Shown piece after piece: positions 2,232 through 6,566 of a stretch of 64,000 nucleotides of DNA. Every line of letters begins with the position of its first letter. Position 1 is the first letter of the stretch. The notes under the pieces are model-generated. The model did no database searches, was not told the DNA's origin, and worked only from the letters and a program-made list of their open reading frames with translations. The stretch comes from Polaribacter sp. (GTDB taxonomy: Bacteria > Bacteroidota > Bacteroidia > Flavobacteriales > Flavobacteriaceae): the NCBI GenBank assembly GCA_018663625.1, contig JABJPX010000055.1, positions 1-64,000 of the forward strand, written 5' to 3'. The position numbers and the translations under genes were made by a program.

Positions 2232-3641
2232 TTATAAAGTAGATGGACATACAAAGTCAGAAACAGGTACTGCAGTTTCTTTGATTGCAGCAAAACCACC
2301 TCCAATATCAATAAAATTATGGATGCCTCTGTTTTTGAGCATAGATGCAGCAATCATCGAACGATATCCTCCTGCACAGTGCACATAAAAAGTTTCTTTT
2401 TCTGGGAATTCCGTCAAATGTTCGTTCAAAGATTGTAAAGGTGTATTGTGCGCATCTACTACATGTTCCGATAAAAATTCACCTTCCTTACGCACATCAA
2501 ATACAGGTACTTCGTGGTTTGCTTTCACCTCTTTAAAAGTGGTTGCAGCAATCGTACTTACCGTATCATATTCTTTGGAGGCTTTTTTCCAAGCATCAAA
2601 TCCTCCTTTTAAATACCCCAGAACATGGTCAAATCCTACCCGAGACAACCGCGTAATAGCTTCCGCTTCCATTCCTTCGGGAGTAATTAATAATAGAGGT
2701 TGTTTCACATCTGCAATCAATGCACCTACCCAAGGAGCAAAACCACCATCCAATCCAATAAAAATGGAGCGTGGAATATGTCCTTTTGCAAAAGTATCTT
2801 GATGACGTACATCCAATACTACGGCTTCGGTGTCATTGGCTGCAATTTCAAAAGCTTCTGGAGACAATGCTTGTGCACTTCGTGCTAAGACATCCGCAAA
2901 ATCTTCATAACCCTCTTTATTCATTTGAACATTTAGAGGAAAATATTTTGGCGGAGGTGTCAATCCATCGGTTACTTCTTTTATGAATTCTTCTTTGGTC
3001 ATATTGGCTCGCAACGCATAATTGGTTGCTTTTTGATTGCCTAAGGTATCTACCGTTTCTTTGCTTAAATTTTTACCACAAGAAGAACCTGCGCCATGCG
3101 CTGGATATACAATAACATCCGCTGCAAGCGGCATGATTTTATTTCGCAAACTATCAAAGAGATAGCCTGCCAAATCAGTTGCTGTAATACTGCCTGTTTT
3201 TTGTGCCAAATCTGGACGTCCAACATCCCCCAAAAACAAGGTGTCACCACTAAAAATAGCATGGTCTTTTCCGTTGGCATCTTTTAAAAGATATACCGAA
3301 CTTTCCATGGTGTGGCCAGGCGTATGAAGCACTGTAATGGTAATATTACCGAGTTTAAACACCTGTCCGTCGGTTGCAATAATAGACTCAAAAGAGGTAA
3401 CTGCATTGGGACCATATATAATGGGTGCCCCTGTTTTTTTAGACAAGGTTACATGACCACTTACAAAATCCGCATGAAAATGCGTTTCAAAAATATATTT
3501 TATGGTCGCCTTGTTTGCGGCTGCTTTTTCCAAATAAGGTGTTACAGATCTTAAAGGATCTATAATGGCAACTTCTCCTTCGCTTTCAATATAGTAAGCT
3601 CCCTGCGATATACAGCCGGTATATATTTGTTCTATTTTCAT
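2232..3641 (-). CDS. ETHE1-like metallo-hydrolase fused to two rhodanese domains
   Basis: A 469-residue three-domain protein. Residues 1-230 are a metallo-beta-lactamase fold of the persulfide dioxygenase/glyoxalase II branch: metal ligands in THFHADFVSGH (His54, His56, Asp58, His63), TPGH (His110), GD at 132-133 and YPAHG (His182). A rhodanese domain at about 262-355 has no cysteine in its active-site loop and is probably structural. A second at about 370-460 keeps Cys422 in HCAGGYRS and is probably catalytic. Such fusions oxidise persulfides to sulfite and shuttle sulfur to or from thiosulfate. It is the first gene of the operon, with an operator and -7 octamer directly upstream. Confidence 0.92.
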   Translation of the reverse strand: MKIEQIYTGCISQGAYYIESEGEVAIIDPLRSVTPYLEKAAANKATIKYIFETHFHADFVSGHVTLSKKTGAPIIYGPNAVTSFESIIATDGQVFKLGNITITVLHTPGHTMESSVYLLKDANGKDHAIFSGDTLFLGDVGRPDLAQKTGSITATDLAGYLFDSLRNKIMPLAADVIVYPAHGAGSSCGKNLSKETVDTLGNQKATNYALRANMTKEEFIKEVTDGLTPPPKYFPLNVQMNKEGYEDFADVLARSAQALSPEAFEIAANDTEAVVLDVRHQDTFAKGHIPRSIFIGLDGGFAPWVGALIADVKQPLLLITPEGMEAEAITRLSRVGFDHVLGYLKGGFDAWKKASKEYDTVSTIAATTFKEVKANHEVPVFDVRKEGEFLSEHVVDAHNTPLQSLNEHLTEFPEKETFYVHCAGGYRSMIAASMLKNRGIHNFIDIGGGFAAIKETAVPVSDFVCPSTL

Positions 3642-3661: not shown

Positions 3662-3705
3662 CAAAAATACTATTTATTCTATCGTGCAACGGTAACATCG
3701 GTTAC
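3662..3705 (-). promoter_or_regulatory. Promoter with Crp-type operator (site A) for the rhodanese/YeeE operon
   Basis: On the minus strand a TATTTTTG octamer (3662-3669) fits the Bacteroidota -7 consensus TAnnTTTG and lies 20 nt before the ATG at 3641. Exactly 22 nt upstream of it is the palindrome GTAAC-ATCG-GTTAC (3692-3705). With transcription starting a few bases past the octamer, the palindrome centre falls near -41, the usual class II activator position. The same arrangement recurs at 5463-5506 and 6523-6566. Confidence 0.75.
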
Positions 3706-3750
3706 ACAGTGTTTTATTTTTTATGCGTTCAGTTAATTTTTTTTAAAACA

Positions 3751-5448
3751 TTATGTAGGTCCATTTGCTTCCGAGTATGCTTTCGCTTCATGCTTCTGTG
3801 AAAAAATATTTTCTTCTCCAAGAAGCGCCACAATACCACTGGTAAGTAACAGATCGTTAATGGGAGCTGAAGCGCCAGAAAACAGTAATTTAATTTCCTT
3901 TTTCTGAAGGTCTTCAATAATTTGTTTTAGCAGATGCAGTCCGCTACTATCAATGTAACTCATGGCTTCCAGACTCAGCACTACCCATTGCAAAGTCGTG
4001 CCTTTTTGCTGTATATTTTGAGAGAGTGTTTTTTTAAAAACCGCCGTATTTCCAAAAAATAGGGGCGCATCCATTCGAAATACTAAAATAGCTTCTTGTT
4101 GCTCATTAAACGTTTTAAAGTGAGTGCTCTTTTTAAAAGAATTGCTGTTTTTAATGCGGTCAATCACGGCAATGTGTGGCACCGAAATTCGATACAGTAA
4201 GATCAATAAAGAGAGGAGTACCCCTGAAAGAATTCCTGCGGTTATTCCCACGGTGAGGGTAATTATAAAGGTAAGGAGTAAGAGTACAAACTCGTCTTTA
4301 TGGGTTTTATATAAAGAGATGGGATAGGAAAAATCGATCAATCCAAAAACAGCAACCATAATAATGGCTGCTAAGACGGCATTTGGCAAATAATAAAATA
4401 GCGGTGTTAAAAACAACAAGGTCAATCCAACGACTGCCGCACTAATAAGTGGAGCGATGCCTGTTTTTGCACCCGCTTGTTCATTGATTGCTGTTCTGGA
4501 AAAGCCGCCTGTTGTTGGATACGATTGAAAGAAAGCACCTACAATGTTTGCGGTTCCCAAGGCCCTCAGTTCTTGATTGGGGTCTAATTCATATTCGGGA
4601 TGTTTTTCTGCCACTGCTTTTGCTACGGAAATGGCTTCCATAAAAGCAATTAACGCCAAAGTAATTGCAATGGGTGCAAGTTCTGAGAGTCGCTCTAAAG
4701 GGATTTTTGGCACTTGAAAAGACGGAAGCCCACTCGGTACTTTCCCAACAATTTGAACCCCAGAAGCATACAGTTCAAAAAAGGAAACCACTACAACCCC
4801 AACAAATACTAGGACGAGTGCGGCAGGAAAACGTTTGTGATATTTTGTATTTAATTTTTTAATAATTTGGATTAAAACAATCGAAGTGACTCCAATACCC
4901 AATGTATACCCATTGATCAAATGGATATTTTTAAAAGCATTTGCTAATAAGAGATGTACTTGGTTGCTTCTCGTGATTTCGAAGCCCAAAAGGTGTTTCA
5001 ATTGGCTAAGGCCAATAATAATTGCTGCTCCAGAAGTAAACCCGCTAATGACAGGTTTTGATAAAAACCGGACTAAAAACCCCATTCTTACAACCCCGAG
5101 TAGCAATTGAATGGCTCCCATAAACAAGGCTAAAAACACGGCCATGGCAATGTAGGAATCCATGCCAGACAAAGACATTGCACCCAGTCCTGCGGCAACT
5201 AGCAGCGAGTCCATGGCAACAGGTCCAACGGCCAATTGGCGAGAGGTACCCATAATGGCATATATAATTTGCGGCATTAAAGCGGCATACAAACCAAAAA
5301 CAGGAGGTAAACCCGCAATCATTGCATAGGCCATTCCTTGTGGAATGAGCATGATTCCAACGGTTAAACCTGCCGTTAAATCGCCCGAAAAATAGTCTTT
5401 TTTATAAGAAGGTAGCCACTGTAAAATAGGCAGTATTTTTTTGAACAT
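3751..5448 (-). CDS. SulP-family anion transporter with STAS domain
   Basis: A 565-residue transporter. Residues 1-430 are the SulP membrane core, with the family pattern MLIPQGMAYAMIAGLPPVFG near the first helices and the SRQLAVGPVAMDSLL stretch after them. About residues 455-555 are a cytoplasmic STAS domain with DSSGLHLL. Family members move sulfate, bicarbonate or other anions. Among sulfur-oxidation genes, sulfate or sulfite is the likely cargo, either as import or as removal of the oxidation product. The gene has its own promoter and operator (site B) and is separated from the next operon by about 110 nt holding site A. Confidence 0.92.
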   Translation of the reverse strand: MFKKILPILQWLPSYKKDYFSGDLTAGLTVGIMLIPQGMAYAMIAGLPPVFGLYAALMPQIIYAIMGTSRQLAVGPVAMDSLLVAAGLGAMSLSGMDSYIAMAVFLALFMGAIQLLLGVVRMGFLVRFLSKPVISGFTSGAAIIIGLSQLKHLLGFEITRSNQVHLLLANAFKNIHLINGYTLGIGVTSIVLIQIIKKLNTKYHKRFPAALVLVFVGVVVVSFFELYASGVQIVGKVPSGLPSFQVPKIPLERLSELAPIAITLALIAFMEAISVAKAVAEKHPEYELDPNQELRALGTANIVGAFFQSYPTTGGFSRTAINEQAGAKTGIAPLISAAVVGLTLLFLTPLFYYLPNAVLAAIIMVAVFGLIDFSYPISLYKTHKDEFVLLLLTFIITLTVGITAGILSGVLLSLLILLYRISVPHIAVIDRIKNSNSFKKSTHFKTFNEQQEAILVFRMDAPLFFGNTAVFKKTLSQNIQQKGTTLQWVVLSLEAMSYIDSSGLHLLKQIIEDLQKKEIKLLFSGASAPINDLLLTSGIVALLGEENIFSQKHEAKAYSEANGPT

Positions 5449-5462
5449 TCATTATTTTTTTG

Positions 5463-5506
5463 CAAAAATAAAAGGAAACAAAGAAGTTCGCAGTAACATT
5501 GGTTAC
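5463..5506 (-). promoter_or_regulatory. Promoter with Crp-type operator (site B) for the SulP gene
   Basis: A minus-strand TATTTTTG octamer (5463-5470) lies 14 nt before the SulP ATG. The palindrome GTAAC-ATTG-GTTAC (5493-5506) is 22 nt upstream of the octamer, the same spacing as at sites A and C. It lies in the 65-nt gap between the SulP gene and the stop of the Crp-family regulator gene. Confidence 0.75.
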
Positions 5507-5513
5507 ATTCGGC

Positions 5514-6146
5514 CTAGATGTTTTTAATAACTATATGATTTCTATGAAGGGTGATTTTATTTAAATTCTCTAGTTTTTTTAAGAGCCTAGAAATGACCAC
5601 TCGAGAGGTATGCAATTCATAGGCAATTTCTTGATGGGTACTATAGATGATAGCGCCTTCAGAAATTCTTGCTTTTTCTTTCAAGTAGTTTACAAGGCGT
5701 TCGTCCATTTTTAAGAAGGCAATACTATCGATGGTAGCAAACATTTCATTGAGTCGATTGTGGTAGCTTTCAAAAACAAATTTTCGCCAGCTTTTATACT
5801 TTCCTGCCCAGATTTCCATTTTTTCTACGGGGACCATAATTAAGGTAGCATCGGTTTCTGCAATGGCTCTGATTTCACTTTTTGTTTGCCCAAGACAACA
5901 GGTCAATGTCATGGCACAAGTATCTCCTTTTTCTAGGAAGTACAGCAGCAGTTCATCGCCATTGTTGTCTTCTCTAAAAATTTTAATAGCACCTGAAATG
6001 AGTAGGGGCATTGAGCGCACGTAGTCGCCAATTTCCATCATTTTCACCCCTTCTGCAACGTCTTTATAGGTGCCTACTTGGTTTATTTCTTGTAAAAGTT
6101 CGGCTTCAAAAAGATGGCCGAAGTTATTTTTGAGCTCCTGAATCAT
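5514..6146 (-). CDS. Crp/Fnr-family transcriptional regulator of the sulfur island
   Basis: A 210-residue regulator. Residues 25-115 form a cyclic-nucleotide-binding-like beta roll, residues 120-150 the dimerisation helix, and residues 155-205 a winged helix with the HTH at about 169-193 (TSRVVISRLLKKLE). The beta roll lacks the arginine/serine phosphate-binding cassette of cAMP-binding Crp. It has three close cysteines (Cys77, Cys83, Cys84), so a redox, persulfide or metal signal is more plausible than cAMP; this is inference. The gene overlaps the end of the DUF983 gene by 23 nt and shares its promoter, which carries operator site C, so it probably activates itself. Confidence 0.9.
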   Translation of the reverse strand: MIQELKNNFGHLFEAELLQEINQVGTYKDVAEGVKMMEIGDYVRSMPLLISGAIKIFREDNNGDELLLYFLEKGDTCAMTLTCCLGQTKSEIRAIAETDATLIMVPVEKMEIWAGKYKSWRKFVFESYHNRLNEMFATIDSIAFLKMDERLVNYLKEKARISEGAIIYSTHQEIAYELHTSRVVISRLLKKLENLNKITLHRNHIVIKNI

Positions 6147-6504
6147 AATTTACAAAGAGATGTATCCATATTACTTTCGAATAAGCAAAGAGTAATGGGG
6201 CGAGTACCACAAGGGCAATCACCATAGAAATTAAGGTAGTAAGATAGTTTAAATTTGGTAAAAAAAGGGTTTTTAAAATCCACAATGCCACAAATAGTCC
6301 CACTGCCAAACCATAAGAAACGTAGTAAGATCCTTGAAAAAAGCCAGGTTCCAGGTCGTATTTCAATCCGCAATGCGAACACGATTCCTTCACGAGGCCT
6401 ATTTTTGTTAATTCATACGGATGCCCTTCAAAGAAGGCGCCTTTTTGACACTTTGGGCATTTCATACCAATAATGCGCAGAAATTTAGAATTTCGTCCAA
6501 TCAT
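6124..6504 (-). CDS. DUF983 zinc-ribbon membrane protein
   Basis: A 126-residue protein. An N-terminal zinc ribbon with two CxxC pairs (CPKC and CSHC) is followed by EPGFFQGSYYVSYG and two to three transmembrane helices, which is the DUF983 layout. Its function is unknown; related proteins are often found near cytochrome oxidase genes. I use the ATG at 6504, not the upstream one at 6591, because the predicted -7 octamer at 6523-6530 and the operator lie between them. The 3' end overlaps the regulator gene by 23 nt, so the two are co-transcribed and probably translationally coupled. Confidence 0.85.
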   Translation of the reverse strand: MIGRNSKFLRIIGMKCPKCQKGAFFEGHPYELTKIGLVKESCSHCGLKYDLEPGFFQGSYYVSYGLAVGLFVALWILKTLFLPNLNYLTTLISMVIALVVLAPLLFAYSKVIWIHLFVNYDSGAQK

Positions 6505-6522
6505 CACTATTTTAATTTGATG

Positions 6523-6566
6523 TAAAAATAACACAAGTGCTTCATTTTGGGAGTAACAAATGTTAC
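6523..6566 (-). promoter_or_regulatory. Promoter with Crp-type operator (site C) for DUF983-regulator operon
   Basis: A minus-strand octamer TATTTTTA (6523-6530), one base off the TAnnTTTG consensus, lies 18 nt before the ATG at 6504. The palindrome GTAAC-AAAT-GTTAC (6553-6566) is again 22 nt upstream. The regulator is the second gene of this operon, so this would be an autoregulatory site. Confidence 0.72.

Follow-up and report, generated by a model that had tools for sequence, protein, structure and literature searches.

The window analysed here is a stretch of 64,000 nucleotides (nt) of Polaribacter sp. (contig JABJPX010000055.1), in which the palindrome GTAAC-N4-GTTAC stands before genes for the handling of reduced sulfur and next to the gene of a Crp-family regulator. 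Exact copies occurred at only three places in the 64 kb, namely 3692–3705 (GTAACATCGGTTAC), 5493–5506 (GTAACATTGGTTAC) and 6553–6566 (GTAACAAATGTTAC). Dinucleotide shuffling gave a mean of 0.04 copies per shuffle, and none of 100 shuffles attained three.

On the coding strand, a –7 box followed each palindrome after a gap of 22 nt: TATTTTTG at 3662–3669 and again at 5463–5470, and TATTTTTA at 6523–6530, all on the reverse strand. A scan with the composite motif (palindrome, 22 nt and TAnnTTTG) returned the same three boxes, which had 0, 0 and 1 mismatches to TAnnTTTG, respectively. A scan with the sigma-70 consensus, from which promoters of the TAnnTTTG type differ, gave 19 promoter-like sites compared with 21.8 in shuffled sequences. 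The first palindrome is the predicted operator of an operon that begins with a persulfide dioxygenase-type gene. The second, behind the regulator gene, is the predicted operator of sulP, and the third that of the DUF983-regulator pair, which would make the regulator control its own synthesis. A preliminary description of this DNA had listed these coordinates, the identical 22-nt gap, the coding-strand form TGTAAC-NNNT-GTTAC and one site in each upstream gap, and was exact on all four.

All genes of the island are on the reverse strand. The regulator (5514–6146; Pfam PF13545 and PF00027) is a protein of 210 amino acids with cysteines at 77, 83 and 84 and the recognition helix TSRVVISR. A DUF983 membrane protein (6124–6504; PF06170) is encoded just upstream. 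The two genes share 23 nt, and DUF983 genes follow 18 of the sites collected below; a role as partner of the regulator is possible. The sulP gene (3751–5448) encodes a SulP-family anion transporter with a STAS domain (PF00916 and PF01740; TIGR00815 above cut-off).

The persulfide dioxygenase-type protein (2232–3641) joins a metallo-beta-lactamase domain (PF00753) to two rhodanese domains (PF00581, in two stretches). Its relatives in the PDB were 3tp9 and 3r2u and, more weakly, 4chl (ETHE1). Downstream are a single-domain rhodanese (1896–2216; PF00581), an S-adenosylmethionine-dependent methyltransferase (1266–1886; PF13649) and two half transporters of the YeeE/YedE type. One of these (627–1184; PF04143) resembles thiosulfate transporters, its match to TsuA being far under the cut-off, and the other (210–623) matched PF20398 and PF04143. 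The methyltransferase gene sits within the sulfur operon; methylation of a thiol or of sulfide would be a guess.

In Flavobacterium psychrophilum, the TAnnTTTG box spans –12 to –5 relative to the mapped starts of transcription (PMC9723704). With a gap of 22 nt, this puts the palindrome at –48 to –35 and its centre at –41.5. The centre thus computed agreed with the position near –41 that had been claimed earlier, and is predicted, from the box position published for F. psychrophilum, to be that of a class II activator.

To follow this arrangement in relatives, stretches of at most 17.5 kb that contain an orthologue of the regulator were collected, 161 loci in all (80 + 80 + the window); orthologues of Dokdonia pacifica and Zobellia uliginosa were among them. 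Eight were dropped as duplicates by regulator sequence, which left 153 distinct loci. These contained 355 palindromes with the 4-nt spacer. With the spacer changed to 2, 3, 5 or 6 nt, the counts were 0, 0, 1 and 1, respectively. Among the TAnnTTTG boxes within 48 nt of a palindrome, 170 of 193 were at gap 22. Ten other palindromes were present in 0 to 28 copies, and none had a box at gap 22. Operators of the CRP type (TGTGA-N6-TCACA) numbered 5, and three of these had a box 21 nt away, which gives the same centre. Those of the FNR type (TTGAT-N4-ATCAA) numbered 28, and no box stood 22 nt from any of them. Against 355, these numbers refuted either type as the rule.

A search of 199 whole Flavobacteriaceae genomes, which was not anchored on the regulator, gave 248 matches to palindrome+22+TAnnTTTG, compared with 2 for the reversed pattern. 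The composite motif was present in 126 of these genomes. In 60 genomes the gap was also left free between 8 and 36 nt. Of the 97 matches, 69 had a gap of 22, 11 a gap of 21 and 2 a gap of 23. The other 15 were spread over eleven gaps, and the reversed pattern gave 26 matches over all gaps. The motif and its spacing were thus conserved in related genomes, as the preliminary description had proposed to check. The shuffles, the locus counts, and the reversed-pattern and free-gap scans together ruled out a chance origin of the palindromes and their spacing. The minor class with a 21-nt gap (11 of 97) may be a form of the promoter that is still tolerated.

Fourteen loci were chosen mostly for having no exact site. 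Eight of them contained a site with one mismatch at gap 22, including six of the seven most divergent loci (L113–L119). A logo of 200 sites was asymmetric. Its downstream flank favoured T (60%) and G (58%) at –34 and –33, and its upstream flank favoured T before GTAAC. The preference at –34/–33 may be the remnant of a –33 element.

The same flank bears on whether the regulator represses instead. A repressor would sit on the –35 region and leave it upon a sulfur signal, like repressors of the SqrR/BigR type, and the downstream half-site does end at –35, beside the favoured T and G that are possibly part of a –33 element. Against this, the fixed spacing of –41.5 is what contact with the polymerase would require, and the sites of repressors are generally less constant in position. 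A precedent is NtcA, which responds to 2-oxoglutarate and controls nitrogen genes; at the promoters that it activates, its site GTAN8TAC has its centre at about –41.5, with the same half-site and position as here (PMC3898017). We gave repression a slim chance, and kept the palindrome as a putative site of activation.

The regulator was the only protein of this genome above the cut-off of HTH_Crp (PF13545). The other match was a single stretch of 23 residues under the cut-off, and a search of the genome with the regulator as query found only itself at E ≤ 10. PF00027 and PF13545, both above cut-off, place it in the Crp/FNR family, and the matches listed from a structural search were exclusively Crp-family or related cyclic-nucleotide-binding chains.

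Among the 199 family genomes, 167 contained a match to the regulator at E ≤ 1e-15. Genomes with an orthologue contained the composite motif in 123 of 154 cases; where there was only a weaker homologue it occurred in 2 of 13, and where there was neither, in 1 of 32. The line between the first two groups was drawn at a gap in the E-values after the matches had been seen, and 12 genomes absent from the match list were assigned to the last group by elimination. The co-occurrence (123/154 compared with 3/45 for the others) gave a Fisher p of 1.2e-19, in which kinship is ignored. The motif thus tracked the orthologues across the family. The Crp-family protein at 5514–6146, which the preliminary description had named as the regulator, is therefore the likely binder of GTAAC-N4-GTTAC.

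The recognition helix agreed with this operator. In 193 proteins of the family, Arg182 and Arg187 were invariant, and residue 183 was Val in 169, Glu in 23 and Ile in 1. Half-sites, counted in palindromes on both strands, were GTAAC and GTGAC in a ratio of 751:41 in the Val loci and 12:14 in the Glu loci (p 3.8e-11). When a box at gap 22 was required, the ratios were 174:19 and 2:4 (p 0.002). Both Fisher tests ignore phylogeny, and the two half-sites within a palindrome are not independent observations. The six box-associated sites in the Glu loci consisted of two with pure GTAAC, both in one locus, and four others.

Position 181 of CRP is reported to select that base pair (the R180/E181 rule; PMC1274295), and the link seen here between residue 183 and the half-site was in agreement. 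By analogy with CRP, Arg182 and Arg187 would contact the outer base pairs in each half of the palindrome. Val183, in the place of Glu181 of E. coli CRP, would lose the contact that selects GTGAC, giving GTAAC. The family may thus offer a natural test, within one family, of how an exchange of Glu for Val at position 181 relates to an operator shift from GTGAC to GTAAC. Some Glu183 relatives in the distant loci described below (L258–L297) had GTGAC or mixed half-sites at gap 22.

The half-site had been described as unlike those of CRP and FNR. That part held, although precedents exist in the consensuses of HcpR2 and NtcA. GTAAC-N4-GTTAC is a stricter form of the NtcA consensus GTAN8TAC. NtcA resembles the regulator in its GTA half-site, its position at about –41.5 and, by alignment, a Val that follows the Arg in the recognition helix. 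It differs in that the cassette of 2xgx, as aligned, contains no Cys, and its profile match was only 50 bits. The NCBIfam model NtcA_cyano scored 42 bits on the regulator, against a cut-off of 244.95.

The operator consensus of the HcpR2 branch, GTAACnnnnGTTAC, is exactly that found here, and HcpR2, which regulates hcp, also has a substitution at the position of Glu181 (PMC1274295). If the regulator were a nitrosative-stress regulator of this type, hcp would be sought among its targets. Yet a single one of the 199 family genomes, and not this one, had a match to hcp (PF03063), a fragment of 42 positions, compared with 5 of 14 control genomes, and no hcp cluster was present among the exemplars of the target clusters. 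The HcpR of Porphyromonas gingivalis (9day) matched the regulator in structure (Z 13.4, 16% identity), as did many Crp-family chains, and was not among the 58 PDB sequences retrieved at E ≤ 10 by the regulator. HcpR2 also has Pro at 181, unlike the Val, Glu or Ile of the 193 proteins here. We rejected this identity as very improbable, on the near absence of hcp and the failure to find P. gingivalis HcpR by sequence. One palindrome serves different branches of the Crp family, and the palindrome alone therefore does not name its regulator.

The targets were read from the 153 regulator loci pooled with 30 loci found by the motif, a set that is biased to the neighbourhood of the regulator and in which double counting is possible. 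There were 307 sites with the promoter geometry. An open reading frame (ORF) was present downstream of 300, and none downstream of 7. The first genes encoded a persulfide dioxygenase-type protein (PDO) in 80 cases, TauE/SafE in 68, rhodanese (RHOD) in 23, DUF983 in 18, an outer-membrane efflux protein in 18, the regulator itself in 17, SulP in 16, a sulfide:quinone oxidoreductase (SQR) cluster in 13, peroxiredoxin in 8 and an unnamed small protein in 7. Smaller groups were YeeE and a cytochrome c-type cluster (6 each), a SorA-like sulfite dehydrogenase cluster under the SorA cut-off (4), a heavy-metal-associated (HMA) domain, a fatty acid hydroxylase and a 4Fe-4S/NrfD protein (3 each), and others (7). 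The PDO and RHOD labels are best phmmer matches to the proteins of the window. The other names rest on one exemplar for each single-linkage cluster, the smallest clusters being left out. Altogether, PDO, TauE, rhodanese, SulP, SQR and YeeE made up 206 of the 300 targets, which bore out the sulfur regulon of the preliminary description.

In this genome as a whole (2.13 Mb, 96% complete) there were five palindromes, four of them with the promoter geometry. The fourth promoter was on another contig, with its palindrome at C41:79089, 22 nt before the box TATCTTTG and upstream of an HMA gene. The earlier view of a regulon confined to one island was thus supported for the sulfur genes and not for the confinement. 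The fourth operator lies in a second cluster of sulfur and arsenic type (L007 4751–7834), which contains an arsenosugar ArsM (NCBIfam above cut-off), the HMA gene, a rhodanese gene and a SulP gene without a STAS match. The remaining palindrome, GTAACGATCGTTAC at C4:19644 (L006 4645–4658), was inside a coding ORF, had no composite-site match and is probably a chance occurrence. With up to two mismatches, the composite motif gave 6 matches in this genome compared with 7 for the reversed control. Further regulon members at two mismatches were dropped, there being no excess over the control.

The HMA gene raised the question of whether metals are the main business of the regulon. The cysteines would then bind copper(I) or an Fe-S cluster, the regulon would serve mainly metal or Fe-S homeostasis, and the sulfur genes would be secondary. 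The fourth site, the 18 sites before outer-membrane efflux genes and the 3 before HMA genes all fit, and bioavailable copper is reported to be raised in sulfide-stressed cells (PMC7315123). The sites before the efflux genes hint that the regulon may also deal with metals or efflux. However, 206 of 300 targets were of sulfur-handling kinds, and some relatives keep one of the three cysteines, which leaves few cluster ligands per chain. A primarily metal-related regulon seemed quite unlikely to us, and a regulon for reduced sulfur was retained. One of the efflux operons, in L077 (9889–15521), encodes outer-membrane, membrane-fusion and resistance-nodulation-division (RND) proteins and has the operator 22 nt before its box.

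The preliminary description had called the regulon self-regulated. This fits the window, where the palindrome at 6553 precedes the DUF983-regulator pair. Elsewhere it was a minority: a relaxed site was present 30–500 nt upstream of the regulator in 37 of 153 loci (none on the opposite strand). A site directly behind the regulator, driving the next gene, was found in 99 (two on the opposite strand). Autoregulation is likely in the window, and not general.

The position of the cyclic AMP (cAMP) phosphate-binding cassette, located by alignment with E. coli CRP, was occupied by DTCAMTLTCCLGQTKSEI. The place of CRP Glu72 holds Met79 in the window protein; across the 193 proteins it was Met in 171 and Glu in none. 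That of CRP Arg82 holds Lys in the window protein, so that the residues of a cAMP cassette were not found. Cys77 was present in all 193, Cys83 in 178 and Cys84 in 166. Since the cassette is replaced by this cysteine cluster, a response to cAMP is unlikely. The window protein has no Cys in residues 1–76, and hence lacks the N-terminal cysteines that FNR uses for its [4Fe-4S] cluster.

For comparison, 29 loci of other Crp-family proteins were taken from relatives, among the matches listed, and 26 of the proteins could be scored. Cys77 was lacking in 24. The exceptions were a probable orthologue (L321) and a protein closely related to the regulator (L331). The best sequence relative in the PDB, 3DV8 of Eubacterium rectale, had Cys aligned at the places of both Cys77 and Cys83, and Glu where the regulator family mostly has Val.

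The closest studied protein that we found was PgRsp of P. gingivalis, a heme-binding, redox-related protein modelled on 3DV8 (PMC6955866). It was likened to the regulator by description, and both have the Crp fold. This raised the alternative of the same class II regulon answering to heme or a general redox signal, with shifts in oxygen or redox state inducing the sulfur genes. Cys76 and Met78 of PgRsp match C77-x-M79 in spacing, as judged from the published residues and not by alignment, and its template is the best PDB relative of our regulator. The heme protein CooA (1ft9_B) topped the structural search (Z 15.7, root-mean-square deviation 3.2, 193 residues aligned), tied with 3dv8 (Z 15.5). 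Single replacement of Cys76, Met78 or His85 of PgRsp nevertheless left its heme spectra unchanged in the published experiments (PMC6955866), and heme therefore does not explain the conservation of the cysteines. A common fold, moreover, proves no function, and 206 of 300 targets handle sulfur. We regarded a heme or redox signal as a minority possibility. A thiol-based response to reactive sulfur fitted the targets best, and the most likely signal is persulfide or another thiol-reactive sulfur species.

RedB was considered as a redox relative and dropped: its motif is non-palindromic, and its published description contains neither the word 'vicinal' nor the word 'cysteine' (PMC9603854).

Persulfide sensors of other families provide a comparison. 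CstR is a protein of the CsoR type. None of FisR, SqrR/BigR and CstR, which belong to other protein families, is of the Crp family. All three are described from other bacteria as persulfide sensors, FisR as a sigma-54 activator and BigR as an ArsR-family repressor (PMC7315123). In Acinetobacter baumannii, the regulons of FisR and BigR include PDO, SQR, TauE and YeeE/YedE genes, as here (PMC7315123). In the open-access literature we found no description of this regulator, nor of a flavobacterial persulfide sensor. The palindrome itself was already known; what is new is the regulon, the regulator that goes with it and the presence of the Cys77/83/84 cluster in place of the cAMP cassette.

Beyond the family, we looked at 40 homologues outside the close family set (L258–L297; two from the same family). 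A relaxed site at gap 22 was present in 12 of these loci, exact in 4 of them. Eighteen of the 40, read by eye and with no background rate, held a persulfide dioxygenase-type (at least 100 bits), TauE, YeeE, SQR or SulP gene. The evidence for the operator is thus strong for the Flavobacteriaceae and thin beyond.

Several observations weighed against the interpretation given below, in addition to the grouping by E-value and the limits of the Fisher tests stated above. Thirty-one of the 154 genomes with an orthologue lacked the strict composite motif, 13 of 153 loci lacked even a relaxed site, and 4 of the 14 selected loci (L047, L082, L091 and L098) had no site. The same was true of 28 of the 40 distant loci. 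In this genome, the TauE gene (contig C50) had no site in the composite scan, and a query for SQR gave no match, an empty answer that shows little. The outer-membrane efflux (18) and peroxiredoxin (8) targets are not plainly sulfur genes. Relatives of about 35% identity keep Cys77 only, and not Cys83 or Cys84. The structure model had a predicted local distance difference test (pLDDT) score below 50 at residues 80–89, so that the geometry of the cysteines was not readable.

At the level of comparative sequence analysis, the data show the sites, their spacing, the targets, the co-occurrence, the conservation of the cysteines and the association of residue 183 with the operator half. The regulon and its link to the regulator are well supported by this evidence. 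We interpreted the regulator as probably a dimeric Crp-family class II activator of a reduced-sulfur regulon, with GTAAC-N4-GTTAC as its operator and the cysteine cluster as its sensor. The dimer would bind TGTAAC-N4-GTTAC and recruit RNA polymerase from –41.5 at TAnnTTTG promoters. The Cys77-Cys83-Cys84 cluster would sense persulfide or another thiol-reactive sulfur species, and formation of a persulfide or disulfide on it would switch DNA binding. The genes turned on would move and oxidise reduced sulfur (persulfide, sulfite and thiosulfate) and, in the window, include the regulator's own operon. Binding, activation, dimerisation, the residue-base contacts and the signal are what we infer from these comparisons.

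A broader reading is that one lineage within the Crp family, most evident in the Flavobacteriaceae and reaching other Bacteroidota, gave up cyclic nucleotides and turned the cassette into a persulfide-sensing cysteine site. It would do for the Bacteroidota what FisR, SqrR/BigR and CstR do elsewhere, and would be the first member of the Crp family to sense reactive sulfur species. We offer this tentatively and with somewhat more doubt than confidence, its odds being reduced because 28 of the 40 distant loci showed no site.

The analysis provides a candidate regulator, an operator, an exact promoter geometry and a list of targets for the handling of reduced sulfur in flavobacteria. If the interpretation is true, marine flavobacteria would switch on their genes against toxic reduced sulfur through one Crp-family protein.

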